A stretch of DNA of 64,000 nucleotides from Clostridia bacterium (lineage in GTDB: Bacteria > Bacillota > Clostridia > Oscillospirales > Acutalibacteraceae), in NCBI GenBank assembly GCA_017399405.1, contig JAFQCT010000006.1, positions 1 through 64,000 on the forward strand. The letters run 5' to 3'. Position numbers and translations under genes: made by a program. Of the stretch, positions 20,585 to 36,304 are shown piece by piece (positions within the stretch are counted from its first letter, which is position 1; each line of letters begins with the position of its first letter). Under the pieces are notes generated by a model. It searched no databases. It had not been told where the DNA came from and worked only from the letters and a program-made list of their open reading frames with translations.

Positions 20585-21415
20585 TTGGCGAATAAAAATC
20601 TTTCACATTGGCTTGTTGTGTCCGATATTGATGGCACGCTTAATAATAAGTTAAGACAGTTGCCAAAACGAAATCGTGATGCAATCAATCGTTTCGTGCT
20701 TGAATGTAATGGTAATTTTACATTAGCATCAGGCAGAAATGTTCAGTCAATGCGTAAGCATTATGAAAGACTACCAATAGCAGGTACACCTGCGGTAATT
20801 CTTAATGGTGCCGGTGTTTATGATTATAACCACGAAAAAATGCTTCATTTTGATGCTATAAATGAGCACGCTATGGATTTGGTTTTCGAGATTTATAAGC
20901 GTTTTCCACTTGTTGAAATTGAAATTTTAACAGATAAAATGATTTATACTTTGAATTCAAGAGTTTTTGCTCGCGTAATGGTTATGGCTGACAAACTTCA
21001 CTATGTGAATTGCAAACACCCTGACGAAATTCCAAGAGAGAATTGGGGTAAAGTAATTTTTCTTGGTATGCCTGATTTAATAAAAAGAATTAGAAAATAT
21101 GTTGATACATTGACTGACACAAGAGCAAACTTTATGTCAAGTTCAATTTCATCTTTTGAAATGCTTAACGAGGGTGTGCATAAAGGTACTGCAGTTATGA
21201 AAATAGCAGAACTTTATGATATTGAGCATAAGTATACAGCAGCAATCGGCGATTATTTCAATGATTACGATATGCTTAAAACTGTGGGACTTCCAGCATG
21301 TTGCGGACAAGCACCAAAGGCAATGCACGAAATTGCAAAATTTCACGCGTGCCATTGTAACAAAGGTGCTGTTGCAGACTTGCTTGAATACATAATGAAT
21401 GATTACAAAGAATAA
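20585..21415 (+). CDS. HAD-superfamily phosphatase, Cof type
   Basis: VSDIDGTLNNK (motif I) and AIGDYFNDYDMLKTVGLPACCGQAP (motif IV) define a Cof-like type IIB HAD sugar-phosphate or nucleotide phosphatase. A cap domain lies between them. The start is the TTG at 20585, 8 nt after AGGAGG (20571-20576); the GTG at 20576 overlaps that RBS and is rejected. It follows rluD by 13 bp. Confidence 0.88.
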   Translation: MANKNLSHWLVVSDIDGTLNNKLRQLPKRNRDAINRFVLECNGNFTLASGRNVQSMRKHYERLPIAGTPAVILNGAGVYDYNHEKMLHFDAINEHAMDLVFEIYKRFPLVEIEILTDKMIYTLNSRVFARVMVMADKLHYVNCKHPDEIPRENWGKVIFLGMPDLIKRIRKYVDTLTDTRANFMSSSISSFEMLNEGVHKGTAVMKIAELYDIEHKYTAAIGDYFNDYDMLKTVGLPACCGQAPKAMHEIAKFHACHCNKGAVADLLEYIMNDYKE

Positions 21416-21437
21416 TTAAAAAATAGGGGGAGTAAAA

Positions 21438-22286
21438 ATGAACGCTTCTTTGAAAAAAGAACTTGAAATTTTTGCAACAAAAGAAAGACTTCTCTTGTTA
21501 GAGGGTATTTTCAATGCAAAGGCAGGCCATCCGGGTGGCTCACTTTCAATTGCTGAACTTATGGCATATCTTTACAATGTAGAGATGAAAGTTGATGCTT
21601 CAAATCCAAAATGGGAAGACAGAGACCGTTTTGTTCTTTCAAAAGGTCACGCAGCTCCTGCACTTTATGCAACACTTGCACTTAAAGGATTTTTCCCAAC
21701 TGAAGATATGAAAAAACTCCGTAAATCAGATTCATATCTTCAAGGTCACCCAAGTATGAAATGCGTACCGGGTGTAGATATGAGTACAGGTTCACTCGGT
21801 CAAGGTATTTCAACTGCGGTTGGTATGGCTCTTGCAGCAAAACTTGATAAGAAAGATACAAGAGTTTACACAATTCTTGGTGATGGTGAAATCGAAGAAG
21901 GTCAGGTTTGGGAAGCAGCAATGTTTGCAAATGCAAAGAAACTTGACAACCTTGTAGTAATCGTTGATAATAACAATCTTCAGATTGACGGTACTGTTGA
22001 AGAAGTTAACTCACCATATCCAATCCCTGAAAAGTTTGTTGCATTCGGCTTTAATACTATTGAAATCGATGGTAATAACCTTGATGAAATCGAAACTGCA
22101 TTTGAAAATGCAAAGAATTGTAAGGGCAAGCCAACAGCAATTATTGCAAAAACAGTTAAGGGCAAAGGCGTTTCTTATATGGAAAATGCAGTTAACTGGC
22201 ACGGTGCAGCACCAAATGAAGAACTTTATAATACAGCAGTAGCAGAACTTACTGCAAAACTTAATGAATTGGAGGCAGCAAAATGA
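21438..22286 (+). CDS. Transketolase, N-terminal (TPP-binding) subunit
   Basis: This is the first half of a split transketolase that interconverts pentose-, triose- and hexose-phosphates. KAGHPGGSLS, LSKGHAAPALYA, and GDGEIEEGQVWEAAMFANAKKL with DNNNLQIDG form the TPP/Mg site. It ends with WHGAAPNEE, and the 282-residue length matches N-terminal halves. GGGGGAG precedes ATG 21438. It overlaps the C-terminal subunit by 4 bp (ATGA). Confidence 0.93.
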   Translation: MNASLKKELEIFATKERLLLLEGIFNAKAGHPGGSLSIAELMAYLYNVEMKVDASNPKWEDRDRFVLSKGHAAPALYATLALKGFFPTEDMKKLRKSDSYLQGHPSMKCVPGVDMSTGSLGQGISTAVGMALAAKLDKKDTRVYTILGDGEIEEGQVWEAAMFANAKKLDNLVVIVDNNNLQIDGTVEEVNSPYPIPEKFVAFGFNTIEIDGNNLDEIETAFENAKNCKGKPTAIIAKTVKGKGVSYMENAVNWHGAAPNEELYNTAVAELTAKLNELEAAK

Positions 22287-23230
22287 GTGAAGTAATCAAA
22301 ACAGCTACAAGAGACGCTTACGGTAAAGCCCTTGTTGAATTAGGTAATACAGATGCTAAAGTCCTTGTTCTTGATGCAGACCTTGCTGCTGCTACAAAAA
22401 CAGGAATGTTCAAAAAGGAACACCCTGAAAAATTCATTGACTGTGGTATCGCAGAAGGTAATATGATGGGTATTGCTGCGGGTCTTGCAGCATCAGGTTA
22501 CACAGTATTCGCATCATCATTCGCAATGTTTGCTGCAGGTCGTGCATTTGAACAGGTTAGAAACTCAATCGGTTATCCTCACCTTAATGTTAAAATCGGT
22601 GCAACTCACGCAGGTATTTCTGTTGGTGAAGATGGTGCAAGCCACCAGTGTTGCGAAGATATCGGTCTTATGAGAACAATTCCGGGTATGGTTATTCTTA
22701 ACCCTGCTGATGATGTTGAAGCAAGACTTTGCGTACTTGCAGCAGCAGAACATGATGGCCCTGTTTATATGCGATTTGGTCGTCTTGCAGTGCCAAGAGT
22801 ATTTGACGAAGATTATAAGTTTGAAATCGGTAAAGGTAATGTTCTTAAAGAAGGCGACGATGTAACAATTATCGCAACAGGCCTTATGGTTAACGAAGCT
22901 CTTATGGCTTATGAAGAACTTAAAGCAGAGGGCATTTCTGCAAGAGTTGTTAATATGGCTACAATTAAGCCTATTGACCGTGAACTTGTAATCGATAGTG
23001 CAAAGAAAACAGGCGTAATCGTTACTGCAGAAGAACACAATGTAATCGGTGGTCTTGGTTCAGCAGTTGCAGAAGTTGTTTGTGAAACAGTTCCTGTTCC
23101 CGTACTTCGCGTAGGTGTTGAAGACACATTCGGTAAATCAGGTCCAGCAGTTCAACTTCTTCACGAATTCGGACTTGACGCTGCAAACATCGTTGCAAAA
23201 TGCAAACAAGCAGTAGCACTTAAAAAGTAA
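22283..23230 (+). CDS. Transketolase, C-terminal subunit
   Basis: The pyrimidine-binding and C-terminal domains of transketolase make up this second half. Motifs are DADLAAATKT, FIDCGIAEGNMMGIAAGLAASG (with the catalytic Glu that activates TPP), and FGKSGPAVQLLHEFGL near the end. Its 315 residues and coupling to the preceding gene indicate an alpha2-beta2-like split enzyme, common in clostridia. A strong hairpin follows the gene. Confidence 0.93.
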   Translation: MSEVIKTATRDAYGKALVELGNTDAKVLVLDADLAAATKTGMFKKEHPEKFIDCGIAEGNMMGIAAGLAASGYTVFASSFAMFAAGRAFEQVRNSIGYPHLNVKIGATHAGISVGEDGASHQCCEDIGLMRTIPGMVILNPADDVEARLCVLAAAEHDGPVYMRFGRLAVPRVFDEDYKFEIGKGNVLKEGDDVTIIATGLMVNEALMAYEELKAEGISARVVNMATIKPIDRELVIDSAKKTGVIVTAEEHNVIGGLGSAVAEVVCETVPVPVLRVGVEDTFGKSGPAVQLLHEFGLDAANIVAKCKQAVALKK

Positions 23231-23239
23231 TCAATTCTG

Positions 23240-23273
23240 GTAGGGCGGGGTCTTGACCCCGCCGTTGCTTTTT
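23240..23273 (+). terminator. REP-like GTAG hairpin 5 acting as terminator
   Basis: GTAG (23240-23243) is followed by GGCGGGGTC, TT and GACCCCGCC (23244-23263), then GTTGCTTTTT. The very GC-rich 9-bp stem stands out from the AT-rich surroundings and ends the transketolase transcript. Confidence 0.75.
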
Positions 23274-23309
23274 AATATAATATTTATATAAATTAAATGA
23301 GGTGCAATT

Positions 23310-24017
23310 ATGTTGGACTATTTTTCAAATGGCAAAGGCAAACCGTTTGTAGTTTTTGCATTTACAATTATTGCATATATCTTATTTGCGTTATCAACTA
23401 TATTTGCTTTATCCATCTGCACCGAATGGTACGGATTAGTAATCGGTGCCATTTTAATGATTTTAGCAGTACCTGTTCATATATTTGCTAAAAAGCATAA
23501 ATTACTTTATATTTTAAGTTATGCTCTTAATACCGTTGGTAGTGGATTTGCAGTATCTGCATATTATCTTGAAAAACAGTTGACAGTAATACCTGAAAAT
23601 ATGTTTTTACCAATGTTAATACCTGCAATAATTTCATTGATTACATATTTGCTTGTAAGATTTTTCCCGAAAATAAAAAAGTTTGTTCTTGCAATATCCA
23701 CTATTGGTACAATTGCAATGCTTATAGCGTTTGCTGTTTTGTGGATTAAAAACGGTTACGAGTTTTACAGCTTTGCTTTTTTCAATTCTGTTTTCACTCT
23801 GTTTTATGTAGTAGTTGATGCAGTAACAGTAGGGGAATATGATAGGTTAGTTATAAGGGATATTTCATTTGGCAGTTTTGGCATTTTCCTTGTAATTGCA
23901 TTAGTTGTACTTTTCATAATAAGCGAGGGCGAAATTTTAGACGGTGTATTTGACGGGATTTTCGACTTTGGCTCAGCAGGAGAAACAAAACCAAAAAACA
24001 ATAAAAGATATAAATAA
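23310..24017 (+). CDS. Polytopic membrane protein of unknown function
   Basis: The protein has 235 residues with about seven hydrophobic segments, for example FVVFAFTIIAYILFALSTIFAL and GLVIGAILMILAVPVHIFA, and a polar C-terminus. I recognise no domain or catalytic motif. GAGGTG precedes ATG 23310. It has its own terminator, so it is separate from the two-component genes downstream. An A/T-rich stretch with TATAAT-like sequence lies just upstream. Confidence 0.75.
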   Translation: MLDYFSNGKGKPFVVFAFTIIAYILFALSTIFALSICTEWYGLVIGAILMILAVPVHIFAKKHKLLYILSYALNTVGSGFAVSAYYLEKQLTVIPENMFLPMLIPAIISLITYLLVRFFPKIKKFVLAISTIGTIAMLIAFAVLWIKNGYEFYSFAFFNSVFTLFYVVVDAVTVGEYDRLVIRDISFGSFGIFLVIALVVLFIISEGEILDGVFDGIFDFGSAGETKPKNNKRYK

Positions 24018-24023
24018 TAAAAG

Positions 24024-24055
24024 ATATGCACCATATTATGTGGTGCATATTTTTT
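24024..24055 (+). terminator. Intrinsic terminator
   Basis: ATATGCACCA (24024-24033) pairs perfectly with TGGTGCATAT (24041-24050), followed by a T-run. It ends the membrane protein gene and isolates the two-component operon. Confidence 0.88.
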
Positions 24056-24073
24056 GTCACATTTTGTATTCTT

Positions 24074-24111
24074 GCAAAAATGCGGAAAAATCTTGCAATT
24101 TTGCAATTCAC
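24074..24111 (+). promoter_or_regulatory. Candidate LytTR-type direct-repeat site A
   Basis: GCAAAAATG (24074-24082) and GCAATTTTG (24095-24103) are spaced by exactly 12 bp, the layout bound by LytTR regulators such as AgrA and ComE. A third element GCAATTCAC (24103-24111) abuts the -35 box. The same three elements with the same spacing lie at 26172-26209 upstream of the giant LRR gene. Binding by the adjacent regulator is inferred. Confidence 0.6.
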
Positions 24112-24140
24112 TTGCTATTGAATACTGATTTTGATAGAAT
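24112..24140 (+). promoter_or_regulatory. Promoter of the two-component operon
   Basis: TTGCTA (24112-24117) and TAGAAT (24135-24140) are separated by 17 bp, directly after the repeat site. The -35 is imperfect, as expected for an activator-dependent promoter. Confidence 0.55.
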
Positions 24141-24188
24141 TATATTGAGTTATAAGAGGCTTTTTCTATATGAAAACGGAGTGGTTAT

Positions 24189-24887
24189 ATGCGAATACTA
24201 ATTTGCGATGATGAAATCAAAAACATAAACGGTTTGAAAAGTTATGTTGAAGAATATATGAATAATCGTGGTATTACTTTTGAAATAGAAACTACTACAA
24301 ATCCTACTGCTGTTGCCCTAAGTGATACTGCCTATGATTTAGTGTTCCTTGATATTCAAATGCCTGAGCTTGATGGGTTTAGTTTGGCTCGTGAATTGAA
24401 AAGAAAAAATAGTAAAGTGGTCGTTTTCTTTATAACTGCATTTAATGAGTATCAAGACGATGCTATGGATTTACAGGTGTTTAGATTCTTTGAAAAACCA
24501 TTTGATGTGAAGCGTTTGTATTCAAGTCTTGATAAGGCTATGGAATATATTGATGGTGCTTATGTTGATGTTTTTGTCTATAACAATAAAGAACATAAAC
24601 GAATTTTAGTTGACGATATTATATATATCAAAAGAGAAAATAGAAAAAACTATCTTTACACCAAAGATGGTGAAATTATTGTTCGTGAATCAATAGAAGA
24701 ATGGAATGAAAAACTTCCTACAACATTTTTCTATTTATTACATAAATCTTATTTAGTAAATCTTCACTATGTTACAAGATACAACTATACAGAAGTATAT
24801 CTTAATGAAACAATAAGAATTCCTGTTGCACCAAGAAAGCAAGCAGATTTCCATAAGGCTTGGTTCAATTACCTTAAAAGGAGATAA
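24189..24887 (+). CDS. LytTR-family response regulator
   Basis: The REC domain (1-~120) has the acidic pocket CDDE near the start, the phospho-Asp in LVFLDIQMPELDG, Thr in ITAFNEY and Lys in FEKPF. The LytTR DNA-binding domain (~135-230) shows DIIYIKRENRKNYLYTKDGEI and HKSYLVNLHYV. Such regulators bind paired 9-bp direct repeats spaced by 12-13 bp. A matching site lies upstream. GTTATATG holds the start; the RBS is weak. The sensor kinase starts 2 bp after the stop. Confidence 0.92.
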   Translation: MRILICDDEIKNINGLKSYVEEYMNNRGITFEIETTTNPTAVALSDTAYDLVFLDIQMPELDGFSLARELKRKNSKVVVFFITAFNEYQDDAMDLQVFRFFEKPFDVKRLYSSLDKAMEYIDGAYVDVFVYNNKEHKRILVDDIIYIKRENRKNYLYTKDGEIIVRESIEEWNEKLPTTFFYLLHKSYLVNLHYVTRYNYTEVYLNETIRIPVAPRKQADFHKAWFNYLKRR

Positions 24888-24889
24888 CT

Positions 24890-26164
24890 ATGACTTATTA
24901 TATTATTTTGACAGTTGCCTACATTATAGAACTGTTTGCAACATATATAGTTTTTTCTCAATTAGGAGAGAAAAGAATGAAACCTTTGTTTTGCTTACTT
25001 ACAGGTTCAGGGCTATTCATTCTTGCTTATTTTGTAAATATTCTGTCCATTAGTAATGCGTGGATAAATATTCTTTTTTATCCTTTTGTGTGCACTCTAT
25101 TTGCTGTTTTATGCTTTAAGATTGAAATCCCCAAAGCGGCCTTGTGGTCTGTTTTATTGGAATTTATTTGTATATCATTAGAATATGTATTTGAATCTAT
25201 TTTAGTGGTCGTATCAAATACAGATATTTTTGGATATCGTGATAATGATTTTATAGCATTTTATGTTGTTGCAACAAGTAAAGGTGCATTCTTTTTGGTA
25301 TGTGCATTGTTGTCACGACTATTGAACAAAGAAAATCATTCAAAAGTACCGGCATCTTTTTATCTTTATCCAGTTTCGGCAATTTTGGTAATTACAATAT
25401 TCTGGTACACTACAAATGACAACAAATTTTATCAGATTTTAATGTTTGCAGTTGGAACATTGTTGTTATTATCATCAATATTTTTGTTTATTGCATACCA
25501 ACGAAACATTGAAAGAGAAAACGAACTTTTTCAGTTGAAAAATGAAATGAATAGAATTGAAACTGAAAATACTTATTACGATATTCTCGAGAAGCAAAAT
25601 CAGGATTTAATGATATATGCACACGATGCTAAAAACCATTTGACTGCAATTAAGAGTCTTAATACAGACCCACAAATCGAAGAGTATATAAATAAAATGT
25701 CTGAAAGCTTAGCGTTTTATAGTAAGGTTAGTCATAGTGGAAATAAAACATTAGATGTAATTATTAATAAGTATTTGACTGAATGTGAAATAAAAGGAGT
25801 AACCTTCACTTTTGATATTCGCCTTAAAAATCTTGAATATGTTGAAGATTATGATTTAGTAACAATTTTAGGAAATCTTCTTGATAACGCATTGGAGTCC
25901 GCTGAAAAATCAGAAAAGCGAGAAATTTCAATATCAACGGATTATCGTAATACATACGATGTTTTAATTATTACTAATAGTTGCGATACTCAACCAAAAT
26001 CGGTTAATGAGAAACTATTTACTACTAAAAGTGATAAGAAATTTCATGGTGTGGGACTTAAGAGTGTTGCAAAAACACTAAAAAAATATAACGGTGACTA
26101 TGACTGGGAATATGATAGTGAAAATAAGGTGTTCACAGCAACTGTTATGCTGACAAATAAGTGA
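24890..26164 (+). CDS. GHKL-family sensor histidine kinase (AgrC-like)
   Basis: About six membrane helices fill residues 1-205, and a short coiled coil follows. The H-box YAHDAKNHLTAIK (about residue 245) is the HPK10-type motif found in AgrC/ComD kinases. The ATPase part has NLLDNALESAEKS (N-box), and GVGLKSVAKTLKKYNGDY closes it. AAAGGAG precedes ATG 24890. No agrB or agrD homologue lies nearby, so the signal is unknown. The kinase and regulator probably control the LRR gene downstream. Confidence 0.92.
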   Translation: MTYYIILTVAYIIELFATYIVFSQLGEKRMKPLFCLLTGSGLFILAYFVNILSISNAWINILFYPFVCTLFAVLCFKIEIPKAALWSVLLEFICISLEYVFESILVVVSNTDIFGYRDNDFIAFYVVATSKGAFFLVCALLSRLLNKENHSKVPASFYLYPVSAILVITIFWYTTNDNKFYQILMFAVGTLLLLSSIFLFIAYQRNIERENELFQLKNEMNRIETENTYYDILEKQNQDLMIYAHDAKNHLTAIKSLNTDPQIEEYINKMSESLAFYSKVSHSGNKTLDVIINKYLTECEIKGVTFTFDIRLKNLEYVEDYDLVTILGNLLDNALESAEKSEKREISISTDYRNTYDVLIITNSCDTQPKSVNEKLFTTKSDKKFHGVGLKSVAKTLKKYNGDYDWEYDSENKVFTATVMLTNK

Positions 26165-26171
26165 TTTTCTT

Positions 26172-26209
26172 GCAATTTGACCGCTTTTTTCTGCAGTTTT
26201 GCAATTCAC
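26172..26209 (+). promoter_or_regulatory. Candidate LytTR-type direct-repeat site B
   Basis: GCAATTTGA (26172-26180), 12 bp, GCAGTTTTG (26193-26201), then GCAATTCAC (26201-26209). The arrangement reproduces site A base for base in spacing, with 15 identical bases in the last block (26197-26211 versus 24099-24113). It lies immediately upstream of the -35 of the giant LRR gene. Confidence 0.62.
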
Positions 26210-26210
26210 T

Positions 26211-26239
26211 TTACTTTGATTATTGCATCAATATATAAT
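26211..26239 (+). promoter_or_regulatory. Promoter of the giant LRR gene
   Basis: TTACTT (26211-26216) and a perfect TATAAT (26234-26239) are 17 bp apart. The poor -35 next to a direct-repeat site suggests activation by a bound regulator. It predicts a leader of about 100 nt. Confidence 0.6.
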
Positions 26240-26248
26240 TGACTTAAA

Positions 26249-26318
26249 GGTAAAAAAAGAAAGGTGTTTACTTTCCTTTTATTACCATACAAAATATTGT
26301 CGCACATCTAAAATGTGC
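26249..26318 (+). other. Structured 5' leader of the giant LRR gene
   Basis: Two hairpins can be drawn: GGTAA...AGAAAG with CTTTCC...TTACC (26249-26286, with bulges) and GCACAT with ATGTGC (26302-26318). The RBS ACAGGAGATGAGG lies 10-20 nt before ATG 26350. It matches no riboswitch that I know. It may only set mRNA stability. Confidence 0.4.
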
Positions 26319-26349
26319 ATTATTTAATCGGGAAACAGGAGATGAGGTT

Positions 26350-29300
26350 ATGCAAAGAACGCGTAAGTTTTTATCCGTTATCTTAGCAGTTATGATGGTG
26401 ATATCCGTCTTTCCTATCACAGCAAGTGCTATAACAAGTGGTGATTGGACTTACTCTGTAATTTCAGAAGCAGATAAAACTGCTCAGATTACAGACTATA
26501 GTGGTACAGCAACAGATTTAAAAGTACCATCAGTAATTGATGATTATAAAATTATATCAATTGGGAATTATGCATTTGATAATAATAAAACCCTTAAAAA
26601 TGTGATTATTCCTGAGGGTATAACATCAATTGGCAAAGGTGCATTCTATTTTTGTGAAGCGTTAGAGCGTGTAGTTATTCCTGAGGGTGTAACTAAAATC
26701 AGTGATAGTACCTTTGAATTTTGCATGGAACTTACAAATGTAGCAATTCCTGCAAGTGTAACAAAAATTGAAGATAATGCATTTGACCTTACAGGTCTTG
26801 AGGTGGTATTTTTCTCTGGCACAAAGGAACAGTGGAAGGCAATTACAATTGGTGAATATAATTCTGACGTCAAATCTGCAACTGTTTATTATGAATGTCA
26901 AAATAATCAACTTCTAAGCGGTACATGTGGTGATAATGCATTATGGGCATTAGATGTTGAAAAAGGCATTTTAACAATTTCAGGCACAGGTGATATGACA
27001 AGTGCCCCTTGGTATAAATGCAGAGCCCTTATTAAAACAGTAGTTGTAAATAATGGCATAACATCAATCAGTAGTGATGCGTTTTTTGAATGTTATAATC
27101 TCACCGGTGCATCTATTCCTGCAAGTGTAACAAAAATAGGCACTGATGCATTTCGTAATTGTGCGAATATTGCAAGTATAAGCGTTGATAGTAATAATGA
27201 ATATTATTCAAATGACCAATATGGCGTATTGTTTGATAAAGATAAAACAAGGCTTATTAAATATGCCGGTGGTAACGGAGAAACAAGCTACACAATTCCT
27301 GACACCGTTTTATATGTTAACGCTTATGCCTTTGAAAAATCTCCAAAACTCAAAAATGTAACAATTCCTGATAATGTAACAAATGTTTATAGCTATGCGT
27401 TTTCAGAATGTAGAAAATTAGAAAGTGTAACAATAGGTAACGGTTTAACTGAAGTTGCTGATTATACATTCCGAAACTGCACATCTTTGAAAAATATTGA
27501 AATTGGTAATAGTGTTACAACATTAGGTTATCAGGCATTTTATGGATGTTCAAGTCTTGAAAAAGTAGTAATACCTGAAAATGTAACCACTCTTGCAAAA
27601 AGAGTGTTTGAAGACTGCACAAATCTTGAAGCTGTGTTAATTCCTAAAAGCATAACAACAATCAGCTGGGGCGTATTTTATGATTGTACCGGGCTTACTG
27701 ATGTTTATTATGGTGGCACAGAAGAGCAATGGGCATCCGTTTCAATAGATGATAATTATAATGATGCTATTAAAAATGCAACAATCCATTATAATATGGA
27801 CCATATACATAGTTATGATAAAGTTGTCATTGCACCAACATGTACAGAAAAGGGCTACACTAAATATACATGCCACTGCGGCGAAACTTATACTATAAAT
27901 TATGTTGCTGCAAAAGGTCATATTGATGAAGATGCTGTTGTAACTGAGCCAACTTGTACAAAAGAGGGTGCAATAAATGGTGCTTGTGAAGTTTGTGGAG
28001 AAACCTTTACAACGCCAATTGATGTTATTCCTCATGCTGAAGAAATAATTCCTGCTGTTGTTCCAACAGAAACTACTACAGGACTTACAGAGGGTAAAAA
28101 GTGTTCAGTTTGTGGCGAAATCCTTGTGGCACAAGAGATTGTTCCTGTTGTATTTATAGGTGGTACTTGTGGTGAAAATCTTACATGGAGTTATAGTGGA
28201 ACTACATGTACTTTAACCATTTCTGGTGAAGGTGATATGCCTGATTACACATCAAGCAATCGCCCTTGGGAAAAGTATGAGAGAAAAATAAAATCACTTA
28301 TTATTGAAGATGGTGTAACCTCAATTGGTAACAATGCTTTCTATGAATGTCATTATATTGAAAATATTGAACTTCCTGATTCAATAACAAGAATTGGTAA
28401 ATATGCGTTTTATCGTTGTTTTACTGTTTCAAGTTTGGTTCTTCCGGCAAACTTAGAAATAATTGACTATGCAGCGTTTTATGGATGTGCTATCGAAAGC
28501 GTAACACTCAATAACTCTTTGAAAACTATTGGTGAAAAGGCATTTTATGGTTGCGATTTCACAAGCTTTACTCTTCCTGATAGTTTAGAAGAAATTGGTG
28601 CAGAAGCATTCAAGAATTGTAGCGAATTAACAAAAGTTATAATTCCTGATAGTGTTACTACTGTGGGTAAATACGCATTCGATTCTTGTTATAATCTTAC
28701 AAGCGTAACATTCTCAAAGAATATGACAGAAATAAGTGAAGGAATGCTTTCTAAATGTTTTAAAATTTCTAGCATCGTAATTCCTGATAAAATTACCTCA
28801 ATAGGAGCAAGTGCATTTGCAGGTTGTACCTTATTGGCAAATGTATCACTTTCAGATACATTAACAAAGATAGGTGCATCAGCATTTAGTGGCTGTGCTT
28901 CATTAAAAGAAATTGATATTCCTGTTGGTGTAACTGAAATCAGCAATGGAACATTTAGTGGAACAGGTCTTACAAGCATTACTCTTCATGACGGCATTAC
29001 ATCTATTGGTGCATCAGCATTTAGTGGCTGTGCTTCATTAAAAGAAATTGATATTCCTGAGGGTGTAACTGTAATCAGCGATGGAACATTCAGTAAATCA
29101 GGTCTTACAAGTATTACTCTTCACAATGGCATTACATCTATTGGCGAAAGTGCATTTGCAAGTTGCGTAAGTCTTGCAAGCGTTAGCTTGCCAGATTCCT
29201 TGATAACTATTAATGCATCAGCATTTAATGGTTGTACTGCGTTAGTAAGCGTTACTATTCCAGCAACTGTTACAACTATAGGTTCAAGCGCATTTAAGAA

Positions 29301-32300
29301 TTGTACTGCTTTAGCAACTATAAATTTACCAAGTTCTCTTGAAATAATCGGTTCAGAGGCATTTTATGGTTGCTCCGTATTGGAGAATGTATATTTTGAT
29401 GGTACAGTTGAAAATTGGCTTGGTATTACTTTTGCTGATATTGAAGCTCAACCTATGTATCAAGCTAAAAACTTGTATTTTAAAAATGAGCTTATTACAG
29501 AGGTTGCTGTCCCTGAAAGCATAACACAAATAAATCCTTATGCATTCTATAATTGTGTGCAGTTTACAAGCATTAATATTCCAAACTCAGTTCAAACAAT
29601 TGGTACTTATGCATTGTATAATTGCTCAGGATTAACAAATCTCACAATCCAAGAAGGCGTTGTAACTATTGAAGCATATGCTTTCTCTAATTGTGATGCC
29701 TTAACAAGCGTAATAATCCCAGCAACTCTTAAAACTGTTGGAAGATATATATTCGCAAATTGCGATTCATTAGAGAAGGTTACTTTTGCTGAAGGCGCTG
29801 TAAAAACAGGGGAATATACATTTTCTAAGTGTCCTGCTTTGAAAGAGGTTGTTCTTCCAAGTACATTTAAAACAATTGGAACTTATTGTTTTGAAGAGTG
29901 TACAGCTCTTGAAAAAATAAATCTCCCAGAAAGTCTTTCAACAATTGCAAAATATGCATTTTGTAAATGTACAAGTCTTAAAGAAATTACTATTCCTGGT
30001 AATGTGAAAACAGTTTCACAATATGCCTTCTATTATTGCGCAGGTCTTGAAAAGGTTGTGCTTGGTAATGGCGTACAAAAACTTGAAGAAGGCGTATTTA
30101 AATATTGCACAAGTCTTGCCAATGTAACATTCTCTGCAAGTGTAACAATAATTGGTACTGATGTATTCCTTTATTGTTATGGTCTTGCAAGCTTCACAGT
30201 TGATAACGATAACCCTAAATATTCAAGTAATGAAGAGGGCGTGTTGTTCAATAAAGATAAGACATCACTTATTCTTTACCCAATCGGCAAACCAGAAACT
30301 TGCTACGAAATCCCTGAAGGCGTAAAAACATTACCGGAAGATGCATTTGCTAATGCCAGTCTTACAGGTGTAATAATTCCAGTAAGTATGGAGCAAATTT
30401 ATGGCTATGCATTTTATAATTGTAGAAATTTAACTGATGTTTATTATCCAGGAACAAGAGCACAATGGCTTGCTATTAAAAAAGATGATAATGCTAAGAA
30501 CATATTGGGTAAAAAGAGACTTCATTGTGAATATCCTGCACCTGATTATGAATATACTGTAATTTCTGAAACTGACAAAACAATAAGAATTACAAAGTAT
30601 AATTTATATAACCCTGTAACTGAACTTGTAATTCCGTCAGTTATTGATGACTATACTGTAGTAGAAATCGGTCCATCAATATTTGCAAGTAGAACTTGGT
30701 ACACAAGTGTAGTAATTCCTGAAACTGTTACAAAAATCGGCGAACGCGCATTCTATCAATGCACAGGACTTAAAAAATTAATAATTCCTGATAGTGTAAC
30801 TGAAATTAGTGCTAACGCATTTAACGGATGTACTAAACTTGAAAAAGTGTTGTTCAATGATGGCATAACAACAATTGGTATTGGGGCATTTAATAAATGC
30901 ACAAAGCTTAAAGATGTTTACTATATCGGCATAGAAACACAGTGGAATGCTATTACAATAGGTGCTGATAATGAACCGCTTGTGAATGCAACAAAGCATT
31001 TTGAATATACTGACAGTTATGTATCATATTCAGGCACTTGTGGTGATAATCTTACATGGACAATTAATGGCTTTACAAATACATTGACAATTTCAGGCAT
31101 TGGTGCAATGTATGATTATTCAAAAAATAATACCCCATGGAAAGACCACAAAAGTATAATAGAAAATGTTGTTATATGTGATGGCGCAACAACAATTGGT
31201 GATTACGCATTTTATAACTATACAAACATTAAAAATGTATCAATTCCTAATACCGTAACCGTAATTGGTGCTGATGCATTTTATAAGTGTACGGGTCTTA
31301 CAAGCGTTAAAATTCCTGATAGTGTAACAACTATTGAAGGATATGCATTTTATCAATGTACTGGCCTTACTGATGTAGTCATTGGTAATGGTGTAAAGAA
31401 AATTGGTAGCGAGGCATTTTACGGTTGCACATATCTTAAAATTATGACAATTGGTAAGGGTATGCAAACAATTGGTTACAATGCAATTGCTAACTGTTCA
31501 AGATTAAAAGATGTATATTATTTAGGCACTGAAGAAGAATGGAATCTTATTTCCAAGAATTATAACAGTAGTCTTGATTATGCAACAATTCATTTCCTTG
31601 GTGAAGCAACCCATGAATGTAATGAAAAATATCGACTTGATTCAGTAGTTACTGCACCTACTTGTACAGAGCAAGGCTACACAACATATACCTGCAGATG
31701 TGGTAAAACTTATGTTGCTGATTATGTTGATGCAACAGGTCACGACTACCATTCAGTTGTAACCCCACCAACTTGTGTAGACCAGGGCTTTACAACACAT
31801 ACCTGTTCAGTTTGTGGCGACAGTTATGTTGATAGCTATGTTGACAGTTCCTTTGATTCAACAATGCACGATTATGATTCAGTTATAATAGAGCCAACCT
31901 GTACAGAGCAGGGTTACACAATGCACATTTGCTCAATTTGTGGTCATAGTTATAATGACGAATATGTTGATTTATTACCACACGAATACAATTCGGTTGT
32001 AACTGAGCCTACTTGCACAAAACAAGGCTACACAACACATACTTGTTTAACTTGTGGAGACAATTATGTTGATAATTATGTGAATGCCCATGGCCATAAA
32101 TACAATGCAGTTGTAACTGAGCCGACTTGTACAGAACAAGGCTATACGACATATACTTGCGAATGCGGTGACAACTATATTGATGATTATGTTGGTGCTA
32201 TTGGTCACAGTTGTGATGAGTGGGAAGTTGTTTTAGAACCAACTTGTCAGACTAAAGGTAGTGAAAAGGGAGTATGTACAACTTGTGGTGCTGAACTTAC

Positions 32301-33084
32301 TCAAAAAATTAACGCACTTGGTCATGATTATGGCGAATTAGTTCTTGAGTATGATGCTACTTGTACAAATCCTGGACGCTATTCACGAGCATGTTCAAGA
32401 TGTATAAGTAAAACTGATGTAGAAATAATCCCTGCAAAAGGACACACCTTTGGCGAGTGGATAGTTGTAACAGAGCCGACTTGCGAAATGAGTGGTTTGA
32501 AAAAGCAGGTTTGCTCAACCTGTGGTGCTGAAGGAATGGCGACAATTCCTAATCTTGGCCACAACTATGAGGCTGAAGAAGTTGTTGAGGCTACATGTAC
32601 AACCGCAGGTAGTATAACACAGCATTGTTCAAGTTGTAATGAAGTGCATGAGATAATCATTCCTGCAATGGGACACACATACACATCACAAGTTATAAAA
32701 CCTGCAACGAATACAACAGAAGGTGTTGAATTATTAACTTGTTTCTGTGGTGAGCATAAATATAAAGCAATCGAAAAACTTTCTGATAATCAAATGGTTA
32801 TACTCATTACAGGTAAAGAAGATGTTAATAAAGAAACTGTCAACAAAGAGAATGTTGGTAATGAGGATACTAACAAAGAGATTATCAGTAATGAAAGTAT
32901 TGGTAACGAGGATATTAATAAGGAAAATGCAAATAAAGACTATGTTGATAACCAATATGTTCCAAATACAAGTTCTAAAACAGTTGTATGCGTATTGTTA
33001 ATGCTTTTGTTCGTGGTTGCTGTTAATATAATCACTAATGTGATTCGTGTTTACAAAAGACGCAAAAATAATTTGAGCGTATAA
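26350..33084 (+). CDS. Giant BspA-like LRR surface protein (2244 residues)
   Basis: The signal peptide is ~1-27 (ending SASA or nearby). Dozens of ~23-residue LRR_5 repeats (IPDSVTxIGxxAFxxCxxLxxV) follow, broken into blocks by the module GTCGDNxxW...LTISGxGxM at about residues 195, 605 and 1560 and by a VISExDK...VPSVIDDY module at ~35 and ~1400. Cys/His repeats (PTCTEQGYTTYTCxCG...GH) occur at ~490-590 and, about nine in a row, at ~1755-2130. Residues 2158-2207 are ten pentapeptides of NKE/GNE type ending in YVPNT. A membrane helix and a basic end (VYKRRKNNLSV) complete it. It is likely a surface adhesin or binding scaffold under LytTR control. The ligand is unknown. Confidence 0.88.
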   Translation: MQRTRKFLSVILAVMMVISVFPITASAITSGDWTYSVISEADKTAQITDYSGTATDLKVPSVIDDYKIISIGNYAFDNNKTLKNVIIPEGITSIGKGAFYFCEALERVVIPEGVTKISDSTFEFCMELTNVAIPASVTKIEDNAFDLTGLEVVFFSGTKEQWKAITIGEYNSDVKSATVYYECQNNQLLSGTCGDNALWALDVEKGILTISGTGDMTSAPWYKCRALIKTVVVNNGITSISSDAFFECYNLTGASIPASVTKIGTDAFRNCANIASISVDSNNEYYSNDQYGVLFDKDKTRLIKYAGGNGETSYTIPDTVLYVNAYAFEKSPKLKNVTIPDNVTNVYSYAFSECRKLESVTIGNGLTEVADYTFRNCTSLKNIEIGNSVTTLGYQAFYGCSSLEKVVIPENVTTLAKRVFEDCTNLEAVLIPKSITTISWGVFYDCTGLTDVYYGGTEEQWASVSIDDNYNDAIKNATIHYNMDHIHSYDKVVIAPTCTEKGYTKYTCHCGETYTINYVAAKGHIDEDAVVTEPTCTKEGAINGACEVCGETFTTPIDVIPHAEEIIPAVVPTETTTGLTEGKKCSVCGEILVAQEIVPVVFIGGTCGENLTWSYSGTTCTLTISGEGDMPDYTSSNRPWEKYERKIKSLIIEDGVTSIGNNAFYECHYIENIELPDSITRIGKYAFYRCFTVSSLVLPANLEIIDYAAFYGCAIESVTLNNSLKTIGEKAFYGCDFTSFTLPDSLEEIGAEAFKNCSELTKVIIPDSVTTVGKYAFDSCYNLTSVTFSKNMTEISEGMLSKCFKISSIVIPDKITSIGASAFAGCTLLANVSLSDTLTKIGASAFSGCASLKEIDIPVGVTEISNGTFSGTGLTSITLHDGITSIGASAFSGCASLKEIDIPEGVTVISDGTFSKSGLTSITLHNGITSIGESAFASCVSLASVSLPDSLITINASAFNGCTALVSVTIPATVTTIGSSAFKNCTALATINLPSSLEIIGSEAFYGCSVLENVYFDGTVENWLGITFADIEAQPMYQAKNLYFKNELITEVAVPESITQINPYAFYNCVQFTSINIPNSVQTIGTYALYNCSGLTNLTIQEGVVTIEAYAFSNCDALTSVIIPATLKTVGRYIFANCDSLEKVTFAEGAVKTGEYTFSKCPALKEVVLPSTFKTIGTYCFEECTALEKINLPESLSTIAKYAFCKCTSLKEITIPGNVKTVSQYAFYYCAGLEKVVLGNGVQKLEEGVFKYCTSLANVTFSASVTIIGTDVFLYCYGLASFTVDNDNPKYSSNEEGVLFNKDKTSLILYPIGKPETCYEIPEGVKTLPEDAFANASLTGVIIPVSMEQIYGYAFYNCRNLTDVYYPGTRAQWLAIKKDDNAKNILGKKRLHCEYPAPDYEYTVISETDKTIRITKYNLYNPVTELVIPSVIDDYTVVEIGPSIFASRTWYTSVVIPETVTKIGERAFYQCTGLKKLIIPDSVTEISANAFNGCTKLEKVLFNDGITTIGIGAFNKCTKLKDVYYIGIETQWNAITIGADNEPLVNATKHFEYTDSYVSYSGTCGDNLTWTINGFTNTLTISGIGAMYDYSKNNTPWKDHKSIIENVVICDGATTIGDYAFYNYTNIKNVSIPNTVTVIGADAFYKCTGLTSVKIPDSVTTIEGYAFYQCTGLTDVVIGNGVKKIGSEAFYGCTYLKIMTIGKGMQTIGYNAIANCSRLKDVYYLGTEEEWNLISKNYNSSLDYATIHFLGEATHECNEKYRLDSVVTAPTCTEQGYTTYTCRCGKTYVADYVDATGHDYHSVVTPPTCVDQGFTTHTCSVCGDSYVDSYVDSSFDSTMHDYDSVIIEPTCTEQGYTMHICSICGHSYNDEYVDLLPHEYNSVVTEPTCTKQGYTTHTCLTCGDNYVDNYVNAHGHKYNAVVTEPTCTEQGYTTYTCECGDNYIDDYVGAIGHSCDEWEVVLEPTCQTKGSEKGVCTTCGAELTQKINALGHDYGELVLEYDATCTNPGRYSRACSRCISKTDVEIIPAKGHTFGEWIVVTEPTCEMSGLKKQVCSTCGAEGMATIPNLGHNYEAEEVVEATCTTAGSITQHCSSCNEVHEIIIPAMGHTYTSQVIKPATNTTEGVELLTCFCGEHKYKAIEKLSDNQMVILITGKEDVNKETVNKENVGNEDTNKEIISNESIGNEDINKENANKDYVDNQYVPNTSSKTVVCVLLMLLFVVAVNIITNVIRVYKRRKNNLSV
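28873..29142 (+). repeat. 135-bp tandem duplication inside the giant LRR gene
   Basis: The 135-bp unit starting at 28873 recurs at 29008 with few differences. It encodes 45 residues, about two LRR units (GASAFSGCASLKEIDIP and the following segment). The near-identity at DNA level suggests recent slippage or unequal recombination. Confidence 0.8.
32821..32970 (+). repeat. Ten pentapeptide repeats before the anchor
   Basis: The translated units are DVNKE, TVNKE, NVGNE, DTNKE, IISNE, SIGNE, DINKE, NANKD, YVDNQ and YVPNT: a 15-bp periodicity with the pattern xx(N/G/S)(K/N)E. This resembles a wall-spanning stalk before the membrane anchor. Confidence 0.75.
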
Positions 33085-33101
33085 AATTAAATTACTAAAT
33101 G

Positions 33102-33141
33102 AAAAAGACTACACAAAGATTTAATCTTGTGTAGTCTTTTT
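33102..33141. terminator. Intrinsic terminator
   Basis: AAAAAGACTACACAA (33102-33116) pairs with TTGTGTAGTCTTTTT (33127-33141). It ends the giant LRR transcript and could serve the convergent PHP gene as well. Confidence 0.88.
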
Positions 33142-33226
33142 GCTTATAAATTACTAAAGTTTATTCTATATGTTAAATTTAATGAATACGAATTTTATAT
33201 AACCAAAATCAATATAGACCTTTTTA

Positions 33227-33907
33227 TTATGGCTTCTTCAATTCATATTCTTTCTTTAACAGTTCTTCAACCAATGTTTTATTATCTTTAATATCTTTAT
33301 TAAAATATATTCCACCTGTGCCTAAATCTTCAATTTCGTGATAATCTGAACCCGATGTGACCATAAGGTCATATTTTTTTGCCCACATTTCAGCAATATC
33401 GTTACTTGAATTATGTCTTGGGTTACCGTTGAAAATCTCAATACCATCAAGGAATTTTGGATTTGTAACCTTCATACCAACTCTGAATGGATGTGCCTGA
33501 AAAACTAAGAATCCATTTTTTTGTGTTAATTCATAAAACTTTTTACTGTTAAGATTAAGCAGTTCAGGCGTGTTATATAAAAAATCTTCCGTAATTCCGT
33601 AAACAAGGTAGTCATTGTCGCCCTCACTTGTGCGGTATCTTAATTCCATACCTAAAAGCACTGGTATTCTTCCGTTTGCAGCTTTTTTTGCGGCTTTATA
33701 TCCACGCAAGAAAAAATCTACTTTCTTTTTCCAAGGCAAAAGCTCTCTTCCATATTTCATATATGTTGACGGACTTAAATGGTCAGTAACTACAATACCG
33801 TCATAGCCCGCTTTAATATATTCTTCAACTGCAACTGATGCTTTTACATTTGCACAGTTGCTTGTATCTTTTGTGTGCAAGTGCATCTCATATAAGTATT
33901 TTTTCAA
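33227..33907 (-). CDS. PHP-domain metal-dependent phosphoesterase
   Basis: The metal ligands of a PHP domain are visible in order: EMHLHTKDTS near the N-terminus, VVTDHLS, a central Glu in LGMELRYRT, FQAHPFR, and SGSDYHE near the C-terminus. Stand-alone PHP proteins hydrolyse phosphoesters, including some nucleotides; the substrate here is unknown. The start is placed at TTG 33907, after a GAGGCG RBS; a longer ORF to 33982 runs over an apparent TATAAT promoter. It is transcribed alone, divergently from the redox operon. Confidence 0.82.
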   Translation of the reverse strand: MKKYLYEMHLHTKDTSNCANVKASVAVEEYIKAGYDGIVVTDHLSPSTYMKYGRELLPWKKKVDFFLRGYKAAKKAANGRIPVLLGMELRYRTSEGDNDYLVYGITEDFLYNTPELLNLNSKKFYELTQKNGFLVFQAHPFRVGMKVTNPKFLDGIEIFNGNPRHNSSNDIAEMWAKKYDLMVTSGSDYHEIEDLGTGGIYFNKDIKDNKTLVEELLKKEYELKKP

Positions 33908-34000
33908 TATATTCGCCTCATTTTCTTTTCTATTGTTTATATTATATACTCTTTTACTTGTAAAGTCGATATTTTTTTGCATTTTTACAGTATTTTATAT

Positions 34001-34029
34001 TTGAAAAAACTCGCATTTTGTATTATGAT
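34001..34029 (+). promoter_or_regulatory. Promoter of the bifurcating-complex operon
   Basis: TTGAAA (34001-34006) and TATGAT (34024-34029) are 17 bp apart, 38 bp before the first gene of the operon. Confidence 0.55.
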
Positions 34030-34067
34030 ATATGTTAGATATTTTCGCATGAATTCGGAGGTCAATT

Positions 34068-34562
34068 ATGAACTGTAATTGTCAGAAAACTAATGATTTC
34101 TCACTTCTTGAGCCTTGCTTACAAAAGTATGCAACTGTGCCGGGAAGTCTAATTACCATATTACAGAATGCACAAGAGATTTACGGTTATTTGCCCGTAG
34201 ATGTTATTTTGCATATTTCACAGCGTACAGGAATAAAAGTCACCAAAATTATGGGTGTTGCAACATTCTATTCACAGTTCAGATTAGAGCCGGTAGGTAA
34301 ATATCTTATTATGCTTTGCCAAGGTACAGCTTGTCATGTAAACGGTTCTTTGCAGATTGAAAAAACAATTAACGAATATTTAGGTATTAAAGATGGTGAA
34401 ACAACTGCTGACGGACTTTTTACACTTAAAAATGTTGCTTGCCTGGGTTGTTGTAGTTTGTCACCTGTAATGATGATAAATGACGAAACTTATGGGTCAC
34501 TTACTCCTGAAAAAGCAATAAGCATATTCAAAGAGTTACAGAAAGGGGAGATTGCAGAATGA
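34068..34562 (+). CDS. NuoE/HydC-like [2Fe-2S] subunit
   Basis: This small thioredoxin-fold subunit carries electrons next to the NuoF-like flavoprotein. Cys84 and Cys89 (CQGTAC) with Cys125 and Cys129 (CLGCC) form the usual [2Fe-2S] site. MGVATFYSQFRLEPVGKY is the conserved NuoE stretch. Its 164 residues are normal. It overlaps the next gene by 4 bp (ATGA). The three-gene set NuoE-NuoF-GltD-like without a hydrogenase H-cluster or other Complex I genes points to a Stn-like electron-bifurcating transhydrogenase. Confidence 0.9.
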   Translation: MNCNCQKTNDFSLLEPCLQKYATVPGSLITILQNAQEIYGYLPVDVILHISQRTGIKVTKIMGVATFYSQFRLEPVGKYLIMLCQGTACHVNGSLQIEKTINEYLGIKDGETTADGLFTLKNVACLGCCSLSPVMMINDETYGSLTPEKAISIFKELQKGEIAE

Positions 34563-36304
34563 AAATAGCAGTAGGACAAGGCAGTTGCGGTATTGCTGCA
34601 GGGGCACAGAAAGCATATGAAGTTCTCGAATCAACCCTTAATTTGAATAACAATCAACTTACCGTAACAGGCTGTATAGGTATGTGCTACCTTGAGCCAA
34701 TTGTTGATGTTTATGCAGAAGACGGACTTCACAGATTTGTAAAAGTTAATGGTGAAATTGCAGAAAAAATCGCAAATGCAATCAATAATAACGATTTGTT
34801 ATCAGTTAAAGAATATGAAATCAATGATGACGATAAACAGTTTTTAGACAAACAAACACGAATTGCACTTCGTCATTGTGGTGTTATTAACCCTGAAATT
34901 ATTGAAGATTATACAAACGATGACGGTTATAAAGCACTTGAAAAAGTGATTACAACAATGTCACCTGAAGATGTAATTGAAGAAATTAAAGTTTCAGGTC
35001 TTGCAGGTCGTGGTGGTGCAGGTTTCCCCACATGGTTTAAGTGGAATGCAGCGCGTCAGGCAACAGGGGATAAGAAATACCTTATCTGTAATGCTGACGA
35101 GGGTGACCCGGGAGCATTTATGGACCGTGCAGTTATTGAGGGCGACCCACATAACCTTATTGAAGGTATGCTTATCGGTGCATACGCTATAGGTGCTACT
35201 GAAGCAATCGTTTATGTCCGTGCAGAGTATCCATTGGCAATCAGAAGATTACAGAATGCAATCGACCAAGCAAAGGCAAAAGGTTTTATCGGTCAGAATA
35301 TAATGGGCACAGATTTCTCTTGCGATTTCAGAATCAAAGCGGGTGCAGGTGCATTTGTATGCGGCGAAGAAACTGCACTTATTGAATCTCTTGAGGGCTC
35401 TCGCGGTATGCCTCGTCTTAAACCTCCATTCCCTGCACAGTCAGGTTATTGGCACAAACCATCAAATATCAATAATGTTGAAACCTTTGCAAATGTCAGT
35501 TGGATTATCTTAAATGGTGGTAACGCATTCTCATCAATGGGTACAGAAAACAGCAAGGGTACAAAAGTTTTTGCTCTTACAGGTAAAATCAAGCGTGGCG
35601 GACTTGTTGAAATTCCAATGGGTAAAACACTTCGCGATGTTATTTTTGATATCGGTGGCGGTATTAAAAACGATAAAAATTTCAAAGCAGTACAGATGGG
35701 TGGACCGTCAGGTGGTTGTATTCCTGGAGAATTACTTGACACCGTAATTGACTATAAAGCATTGTCGCAGACCGGTGCAATTATGGGCTCAGGCGGTATG
35801 GTTGTTATGGACGACAGTACTTGTATGGTTGAAATGGCTCGTTTCTTCCTTGATTTTACTGCAAAAGAATCTTGCGGTAAATGTGTTCATTGTCGTCTTG
35901 GCACAAAGAGAATGCTTGAAATCCTTACTCGTATTACAGAGGGTAACGGCAAGGAAGAAGATATCGAATTACTCGAAGAACTTTGTCTTGCTATTAAAGA
36001 CGGTGCGTTGTGTGGACTTGGCCAGACAGCACCAAACCCGGTGCTTACAACACTTAAATACTTTAAGAATGAATATGTTGAACATATTGTAGATAAAAAA
36101 TGTGCTGCTCACGAATGTACAAATCTTCTTAAATATGAAATTAACCCTGATTTGTGTCGTGGTTGTACTCTTTGTTCAAAGAAATGTCCTGTTGGTGCAA
36201 TTAGTGGCACAGTTAAAAACCCACATATTATTGATGTGTCAAAATGTATCAAGTGTGGTAACTGTAAAACAGTATGCAAATTTAACGCTGTGGAGGTGAA
36301 ATAA
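34559..36304 (+). CDS. NuoF/HydB-like FMN and Fe-S subunit
   Basis: The 581-residue subunit is built like the bifurcating HydB/HndC type. A thioredoxin-like N-terminus has Cys10, Cys39 and Cys43 (GSCGIAAGA, TGCIGMC). The FMN/NADH part contains GLAGRGGAGFPTWFKW (~145) and the conserved CNADEGDPGAFMDR. SCGKCVHCRLGT (~438) with a later Cys (~486) binds a [4Fe-4S] cluster. The C-terminus has two [4Fe-4S] ferredoxin motifs, CRGCTLCSKKCP and CIKCGNCKTVCK. The two extra clusters are typical of enzymes that exchange electrons with ferredoxin. It lies between the NuoE-like and GltD-like genes with no gap. Confidence 0.9.
   Translation: MKIAVGQGSCGIAAGAQKAYEVLESTLNLNNNQLTVTGCIGMCYLEPIVDVYAEDGLHRFVKVNGEIAEKIANAINNNDLLSVKEYEINDDDKQFLDKQTRIALRHCGVINPEIIEDYTNDDGYKALEKVITTMSPEDVIEEIKVSGLAGRGGAGFPTWFKWNAARQATGDKKYLICNADEGDPGAFMDRAVIEGDPHNLIEGMLIGAYAIGATEAIVYVRAEYPLAIRRLQNAIDQAKAKGFIGQNIMGTDFSCDFRIKAGAGAFVCGEETALIESLEGSRGMPRLKPPFPAQSGYWHKPSNINNVETFANVSWIILNGGNAFSSMGTENSKGTKVFALTGKIKRGGLVEIPMGKTLRDVIFDIGGGIKNDKNFKAVQMGGPSGGCIPGELLDTVIDYKALSQTGAIMGSGGMVVMDDSTCMVEMARFFLDFTAKESCGKCVHCRLGTKRMLEILTRITEGNGKEEDIELLEELCLAIKDGALCGLGQTAPNPVLTTLKYFKNEYVEHIVDKKCAAHECTNLLKYEINPDLCRGCTLCSKKCPVGAISGTVKNPHIIDVSKCIKCGNCKTVCKFNAVEVK

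Follow-up and report, generated by a model that had tools for sequence, protein, structure and literature searches.

How might the gene of a giant surface protein come to be controlled together with the agr-like two-component system encoded beside it, in a genome in which no AgrB is detected? The question is raised by a 64,000-nucleotide stretch (hereafter the window: positions 1 to 64,000 of contig JAFQCT010000006.1) from a Clostridia bacterium (Oscillospirales), in which genes for a response regulator (RR) of the LytTR type, an AgrC/VirS-like histidine kinase (HK) and a 2244-residue BspA-type leucine-rich repeat (LRR) protein follow one another. The answer that we consider probable is that a VirR/AgrA-like LytTR two-component system here activates its own genes together with that of the neighbouring giant LRR surface protein, and does so without being coupled to agrB.

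One operator layout at two promoters

The original prediction had described a three-part direct-repeat signal, with the same spacing, in front of the RR gene and in front of the LRR gene. Its words are present at both promoters, with 12 bp between the first two blocks: GCAAAAATG (24074-24082), GCAATTTTG (24095-24103) and GCAATTCAC (24103-24111) at the RR promoter; GCAATTTGA (26172-26180), GCAGTTTTG (26193-26201) and GCAATTCAC (26201-26209) at the LRR promoter. The 15-base match that it reported is exact: TTTTGCAATTCACTT is identical at 24099-24113 and 26197-26211. What does not hold is the division into three. The third word overlaps block 2 by one base, extends to the -35 and for the most part forms the right arm of half-site 2 (12 bp), so that the signal is two-part; a third block standing as an independent repeat was rejected, the letters after half-site 2 being variable in relatives. 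A comparable block (GCAATTCA/GCAATTTA) is nevertheless seen again at the LRR promoters of a second module, described below, in the own genome and in genome G012. Both half-sites and their 21-bp period are kept in the relatives, and the distance to the -35 is mostly kept.

The half-site consensus is approximately TGCR-NTTN-KNCR (12 bp); the two half-sites lie 21 bp apart, and the pair ends 6 bp before a weak -35. The layout of LytTR-type operators--two direct repeats with a period of about 21 bp, directly upstream of the -35--is thus found at both promoters. At the RR promoter 18 bp separate the start of half-site 2 from that of the -35, and the offset at the LRR promoter is the one seen in most sites of the relatives: measured from the first base of half-site 2, the best -35 begins 18-19 bp further on at both window sites and at 21 of the 28 relatives' sites, out of 29, that could be scored (binomial 8e-17, a value that assumes even offsets and independent sites). 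A site model built from relatives only (described below) gives the LRR site 30.6 bits.

The proteins on either side of these promoters are of the expected kinds. The RR has a receiver domain (with Asp55 present) and a LytTR domain, both above the Pfam cut-off, and it adjoins a GHKL membrane kinase with seven hydrophobic segments and a His245 within an HDxxNH motif: the two marks of a LytTR two-component system. The RR and HK genes apparently form one operon, and the regulator is probably transcribed from its own promoter, because a terminator-like hairpin sits behind the upstream gene (Table 1). (Three further comparisons concern this region. The AgrA equivalog model NF046049, with a curated cut-off of 400 bits, is absent among the best 25 of 76 NCBIfam matches of the RR, the top one at 60.3 bits; the best 60 of its 127 PDB sequence matches all lie within the receiver domain; and an Rfam scan of 21000-35000 gave zero matches at gathering score.)

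LRR_5 repeats place the 2244-residue protein in the BspA-type LRR class. It has an N-terminal hydrophobic signal and, near the C-terminus, a hydrophobic stretch with a basic tail after it; by eye, a sortase-like PNTS can be read before the hydrophobic stretch and KRRK in the tail. (BspA-type LRR proteins of the genus also occur with dockerin type I domains above cut-off, at window 1022-3235 and in loci L176 and L178, and fused to subtilase domains, in L119, L120, L042 and L174.)

Does the LRR gene need a promoter of its own? Only six bases separate the stop codon of the kinase gene from LRR half-site 1, so that there is no terminator between the kinase gene and the LRR operator, and the leader of the LRR gene contains a weak terminator-like hairpin (26302-26318). 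Both points would suit an LRR gene transcribed only by readthrough from the RR operon, its operator being a functionless promoter duplication. We regard this as very unlikely: it is the LRR site that is the stronger of the two (30.6 vs 13.8 bits) and has the better -10, and in L119, L120 and L042 the site is kept despite a terminator-like hairpin (identified by eye) between the kinase gene and the site.

Table 1. Positions, in the window, of the genes and predicted control elements of the RR-HK-LRR module
Feature	Coordinates	Strand	Evidence
Intrinsic-terminator-like hairpin behind the upstream gene	24017..24057	+	Terminator scan
Predicted operator half-site 1, RR promoter, TGCAAAAATGCG, quasi-palindromic	24073..24084	+	Relatives' model fits better in reverse
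Predicted operator half-site 2, RR promoter, TGCAATTTTGCA, 21 bp after half-site 1	24094..24105	+	Period 21 also upstream of orthologues
RR operon promoter: -35 TTGCTA 24112-24117, 17 bp, -10 TAGAAT 24135-24140	24112..24140	+	
RR, 232 aa, receiver and LytTR DNA-binding domain	24189..24887	+	Pfam PF00072 1.6e-17, PF04397 1.7e-17
AgrC/VirS-like sensor kinase (HK), 424 aa, GHKL ATPase	24890..26164	+	PF14501 1.3e-23, hydropathy
Predicted operator half-site 1, LRR promoter, TGCAATTTGACC	26171..26182	+	Relatives-only model
Predicted operator half-site 2, LRR promoter, TGCAGTTTTGCA	26192..26203	+	Relatives-only model
LRR gene promoter: -35 TTTACT 26210-26215, 18 bp, -10 TATAAT 26234-26239	26210..26239	+	
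Giant BspA-type LRR protein, 2244 aa	26350..33084	+	PF13306, 1034 bits, 13 stretches

The operator in its genome and among relatives

It is the two-half-site layout, rather than the 15-mer alone, that stands out. With three mismatches allowed, TTTTGCAATTCACTT by itself gives 10 matches where 10.97 are expected, which is not above chance. Allowed as many as three mismatches, the joint pattern TTGCA-N17-TGCARTTTTGCAATTCAC finds the two promoters and nothing else within the 64-kb window, and nothing in 100 shuffles; the core TGCARTTTTGCAATTCAC has exactly two exact copies in the 1.96-Mb genome (at up to three mismatches, 7 vs 3 for a reversed control). The relatives-only model puts the LRR site at the top of the genome (whole-operator match at 26165-26203, E 8.2e-7; the next match is at 0.0026). 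The signal is accordingly not one that turns up at random positions, and the prediction stands in that respect. Its further claim, that the giant surface protein is the main local target, stands as to the operator at the LRR promoter; the word "main" rests on the two exact core sites genome-wide. About 12 open reading frames (ORFs) of the genome contain LRR_5, and at its other LRR loci that were fetched, L260-L268, no pair of at least 15/18 stands immediately before the LRR gene, two qualifying pairs lying inside other genes. (A candidate third operator of the same type is seen at C15:51937, L269:1938, upstream of the gene for a membrane-type protein of 395 aa that has no Pfam match; the operator's distance to TATAAT equals that in the window LRR promoter.)

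The regions upstream of orthologous regulators carry the same period. Of the 39 other genus genomes scanned, 10 encode an RR orthologue that shares at least 44% identity, and nine named contigs hold RR relatives with 52-62% identity over the aligned part. Twenty RR upstream regions were compared, the window included (L118 and L045, with incomplete upstream regions, were left out). With 12-nt windows the combined z at period 21 is 6.0, the next highest among periods 12-33 being 2.6; with 9-nt and 15-nt windows it is 3.8 and 5.5, against 2.8 and 3.4 for the next highest. A pair matching in at least 15/18 positions at spacing 21 is found in 8 of the 20 regions, compared with 4 of 280 tests at 14 other spacings between 15 and 29. 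Conservation upstream of orthologous regulators, which the prediction implied, is to this extent borne out.

A model of the site was made from relatives. (The technical details matter for what follows: of 40 pattern matches in fetched regions 24 were taken and 16 dropped by eye, as lying within long genes, lacking a downstream gene or repeating a site in a shifted register; RR loci contributed five more, making 29 sites, 28 of them distinct and none from the window's own genome. The model is sequence-only. Looser patterns of the type YTGCRNTT-N13-YTGCRNTT, run over the 40 genus genomes, are swamped in some of these, the window's own included, by a TTTGCAC-type minisatellite; they served to pick regions to fetch and were excluded as counts, and 18 genomes were scanned again. 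The heptamer repeats themselves, TTGCACTTTGCGTTTTGCATTTTGCACTT, are dispersed in the own genome at C2:60494, C9:8772, C10:119559 and C15:77641, in several relatives, and at many places in genome G009.) Over the 40 genus genomes the model finds 27 sites at E<1e-4, in 13 genomes, 25 of which belong to the training set or match one of its members exactly. The exceptions are the window LRR promoter and G027:C3:91258 (E 3.3e-5), upstream of a 2104-aa secreted RHS/CBM protein and beside an RR-HK pair; a somewhat weaker non-training site, G032:C57 (E 2e-4), lies upstream of a further RHS protein, this one with no fewer than 1709 aa. (Operators of this kind thus precede the genes of giant secreted RHS-repeat proteins at L305:4374-10685, in G027, and L306:2-5128, in G032; the G027 gene directly follows an AgrB-linked RR-HK pair.)

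Eleven of the 27 strong sites stand directly before LRR_5 genes above cut-off: the window LRR gene, three genes in G010, two each in G015 and G008, and one each in G023, G033 and G036. The other downstream genes encode a sub-threshold LRR protein (G011), an LRR protein as second ORF (G010:C22), an SLH protein (G010:C1) and the RHS protein of G027; the remainder are small secreted or membrane proteins or are unclear, and two sites lie at contig ends. Within the genus, 9 of the 11 genomes that have an RR orthologue at or above 44% identity contain a strong site, compared with 4 of the 29 that lack one (Fisher 1e-4, a comparison that is partly circular).

Outside the genus, under stricter filters, 5 of 118 genomes are matched at E<=5e-4, with eight matches in total. 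Those in G060, a member of another genus, precede a subtilase gene and two sigma-factor operons and, from their sequences, look like real operators. (In L328 and L334 of G060, operator-like pairs stand before the two sigma-70 r2/r4 operons, with a -35 of TTGACA.) The matches in G110 and G073:C30 were set aside as look-alikes, being upstream of XRE-type repressor genes; for the remaining outside-genus matches no downstream gene was identified (L331 lies outside this count). Two look-alikes out of eight might suggest that the whole similarity derives from XRE/CI-type TTTTGCAAAA palindromes or, given that the heptamer repeats of this genome fit the loose patterns, from chance in AT-rich DNA with a minisatellite. 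We consider this exceedingly improbable in view of the spacing of exactly 21, the recurrent -35 offset and the position before genes of secreted proteins; a domain scan of six genes between 22283 and 33982 gave no XRE match.

Which regulator reads which site?

A number of observations weigh against the reading that the system activates itself and its LRR gene. The site at the RR promoter is weak: it scores 13.8 and 12.6 bits on its two strands by the relatives' model (E 0.0037 for 64 kb at 13.8 bits), half-site 1, TGCAAAAATGCG, fits poorly on the + strand and better when reversed, the divergent genes 33227-33982 and 34068-34562 have between them a partial match (33972-33996) that comes almost level at 13.2 bits, and the RR-promoter site is absent among the genome-wide model matches listed. 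It is notable for its place and layout, rather than for its model score. Upstream of orthologous regulators, 12 of the 20 regions are without a pair of at least 15/18 at spacing 21, and of the seven positives besides the window, six have the pair pointing away from the regulator; plain autoregulation is therefore not universal. Two of the positives, L121 and L122, are close relatives of each other. L119 and L120, whose layout comes nearest to that of the window, show no -35 at 18-19. The closest relative, G011 (79% over 188 residues), has no LRR gene after its RR-HK pair on a 6-kb contig. Since training sites were chosen by eye with downstream genes in view, and 25 of the 27 strong sites are among them or identical to them, the genome comparison and the share of LRR genes are partly circular. 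Finally, strong sites are present in G008, G023, G027 and G032, where no RR orthologue was found, and G008 and G032 have no LytTR match at all. The core of the AgrC/AgrA-like system that had been predicted is nonetheless supported computationally: by the domain make-up of RR and HK, by the 21-bp-period operator at both promoters, by similar pairs in front of some of the orthologous regulators and of BspA-type LRR genes in relatives, and by the lack of an AgrB match in the genome; autoregulation as a universal rule among the orthologues does not survive.

(The divergent side of the pairs that point away includes, in L043, an ABC exporter and, in L041, an OmpR-type regulator. At two orthologous RR loci on contigs labelled as other families, L043:4015-5712 and L046:520-2367, a divergent ABC transporter has an operator-like pair oriented towards it; no AgrB was seen in L043 or L046 within the sequenced region examined.)

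Could these operators be used by another LytTR regulator, or be shared by several? The genome encodes three LytTR proteins, the others being a paralogue on contig C10 and a 151-aa LytTR protein on C14, and the C10 paralogue comes with a module of its own: at C10:223332-228618 (L260:4330-9618) a second LytTR RR (36% identity) and a kinase are followed by a 1055-aa BspA-type LRR gene, and G012 shows the same gene order. The RR and LRR promoters of this module share a different operator, RAYAATTTTG twice with a 21-bp period. The own genome and G012 each have two such pairs, one before the RR gene and one before the LRR gene (the pattern was derived from these four sites, which match it by construction); with up to two mismatches there is no further match in either genome and none in G009, G013 or G015, and G011 has one two-mismatch match, while a reversed control gives zero in all six genomes. 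That a second module has its own operator is the strongest sign that each regulator may read its own sites.

Cross-reading by the C10 paralogue or the C14 protein, or sharing among several regulators, appears to us improbable, though there are points in its favour. The TGC-type and AAY-type operators have AATTTTG in common. G010 has three LytTR proteins and strong sites that are all of the TGC type, and there are the four genomes with strong sites and no orthologue of the window RR. Against this, AAY-type matches in the own genome are confined to the C10 RR and LRR promoters, and the exact TGC-type core to the window module. (At C8:181132, L270:1633, a secreted 382-codon ORF with an IPNTDGG-type sortase-like tail has a promoter resembling a hybrid of both operator types, which also speaks for sharing.)

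A relative of agr without agrB

Self-activation of the RR-HK operon together with the LRR gene has close parallels in known systems (published descriptions are cited here and below from excerpts of the papers). 1) The VirS/VirR system of Clostridium perfringens likewise pairs a LytTR regulator with a membrane kinase, and two imperfect direct repeats with a 21-bp period lie just upstream of the -35; its targets include secreted proteins (PMC2838878, PMC4747519), whereas the target studied in the window is an adjacent giant LRR surface protein. The VirR boxes, CCAnTT-N15-CCAGTTnnnCA, have a 21-bp period (PMC4747519); set against CCAGTTnnnCA, the window has GCAGTTTTGCA. The spacing is identical, but the half-site starts with TGC instead of CCA (GCA replacing CCA) and RR half-site 1 is without TT, so that by these descriptions the half-sites may be called VirR-like without fitting the VirR consensus. 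2) In agr, the LytTR direct repeats of AgrA lie upstream of promoters whose -35/-10 spacers are suboptimal (PMC4227749); an AgrC-like GHKL kinase, a LytTR regulator and direct repeats upstream of promoters are shared, and in relatives the orthologous regulators adjoin AgrB, as in agr loci. The window differs in that its genome has no AgrB match, an LRR gene follows the kinase and the RR falls below the AgrA equivalog model. 3) RgaS/RgaR of Clostridioides difficile shares a VirR-like regulator, VirR-like direct repeats and a VirS-like kinase; there, an orphan kinase and regulator act on agrB1D1, whereas the window pair forms one operon and no AgrB is found (PMC10602386). 4) In the LytTR regulatory systems of the HdrRM type, HdrR is autoregulated through 9-bp repeats 12 bp apart upstream of the -35 (PMC6193735), the layout seen here; these systems combine a regulator without receiver with an inhibitory membrane partner, whereas the window has a receiver and a histidine kinase. 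Among titles and abstract openings in the best-ranked part of a literature search, no pairing of LytTR or agr systems with BspA or LRR proteins was described; BspA and a LytTR regulator are mentioned separately in the excerpt of PMC7586716.

The mechanism that we propose is drawn by analogy from VirR, AgrA and HdrR (PMC2838878, PMC4747519, PMC4227749, PMC6193735); binding by the RR of this operon, activation rather than repression, and the stimulus are inferred. HK would phosphorylate RR; phosphorylated RR would bind both half-sites, two helical turns apart and on the same face of the DNA, and recruit or help RNA polymerase at a weak -35. Positive feedback on the RR-HK operon could then produce a switch-like rise, with co-activation of the adjacent 2244-residue BspA-type LRR gene.

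The system belongs, judging by its relatives, to a family that includes agr loci, and appears to stand here without agrB, as predicted: AgrB (PF04647) has no match in the own genome, which is 97.5% complete, while 16 of the 40 genus genomes have one. A six-frame reading of the two intergenic regions gave no obvious agrD candidate, agrD being short and variable. Of 42 RR regions examined, L046 and L118 were dropped because contig ends cut them; AgrB is nearby in 17 of the remaining 40 and not in 23. An LRR gene stands behind the kinase at 9 of the 23 AgrB-less loci, compared with 1 of the 17 AgrB loci (Fisher 0.026; several AgrB-less loci, such as L122, L123, L314 and L322, end within a few kb), an association that on independent tree pairs is not significant (median p 0.125). 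On an RR tree of 41 rows the LRR label changes at least 7 times and the AgrB label at least 12 times, LRR-linked and AgrB-linked RRs interleaving, so that both couplings look recurrent; the window RR groups with that of G011 (100/99).

What, then, would such a kinase sense? Foreign agr peptides, surface state and LRR fragments are all candidates. The first of these suggests an eavesdropper: an agr receiver that has lost its own agrBD and listens to the cyclic peptides of neighbours, the LRR protein being the answer to other species' quorum signals. The kinase does retain an AgrC-like architecture, H-box and ATPase, and there is no AgrB match in its genome, yet AgrB adjoins orthologous RRs in relatives and its linkage comes and goes on the RR tree. 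An intact kinase is, however, equally to be expected for any other ligand; we regard eavesdropping as possible, if on balance unlikely. A bolder proposal, and something of a long shot, is that BspA-type LRR genes of this lineage, frequently with subtilase or dockerin domains, have repeatedly replaced agrBD beside an agr-type system, and that the LRR protein, or a fragment shed from it, serves as signal or co-sensor in addition to being an output, engaging the orphan AgrC-like kinase, thereby closing an autoinduction loop.

Activation of the RR-HK operon and of its LRR neighbour by their own regulator would have consequences beyond this locus. It offers a concrete candidate operator for giant surface and secreted proteins (BspA-LRR, subtilase-LRR, SLH, RHS) of the little-studied Oscillospiraceae, the regulation of which is difficult to approach as long as cultures are lacking. 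A single genome that holds two paralogous modules with an operator apiece amounts to a natural specificity swap for LytTR domains. And agr-type kinases that are recurrently paired with LRR genes instead of AgrB pose a more general question: what does a "peptide-less" AgrC-like kinase sense?

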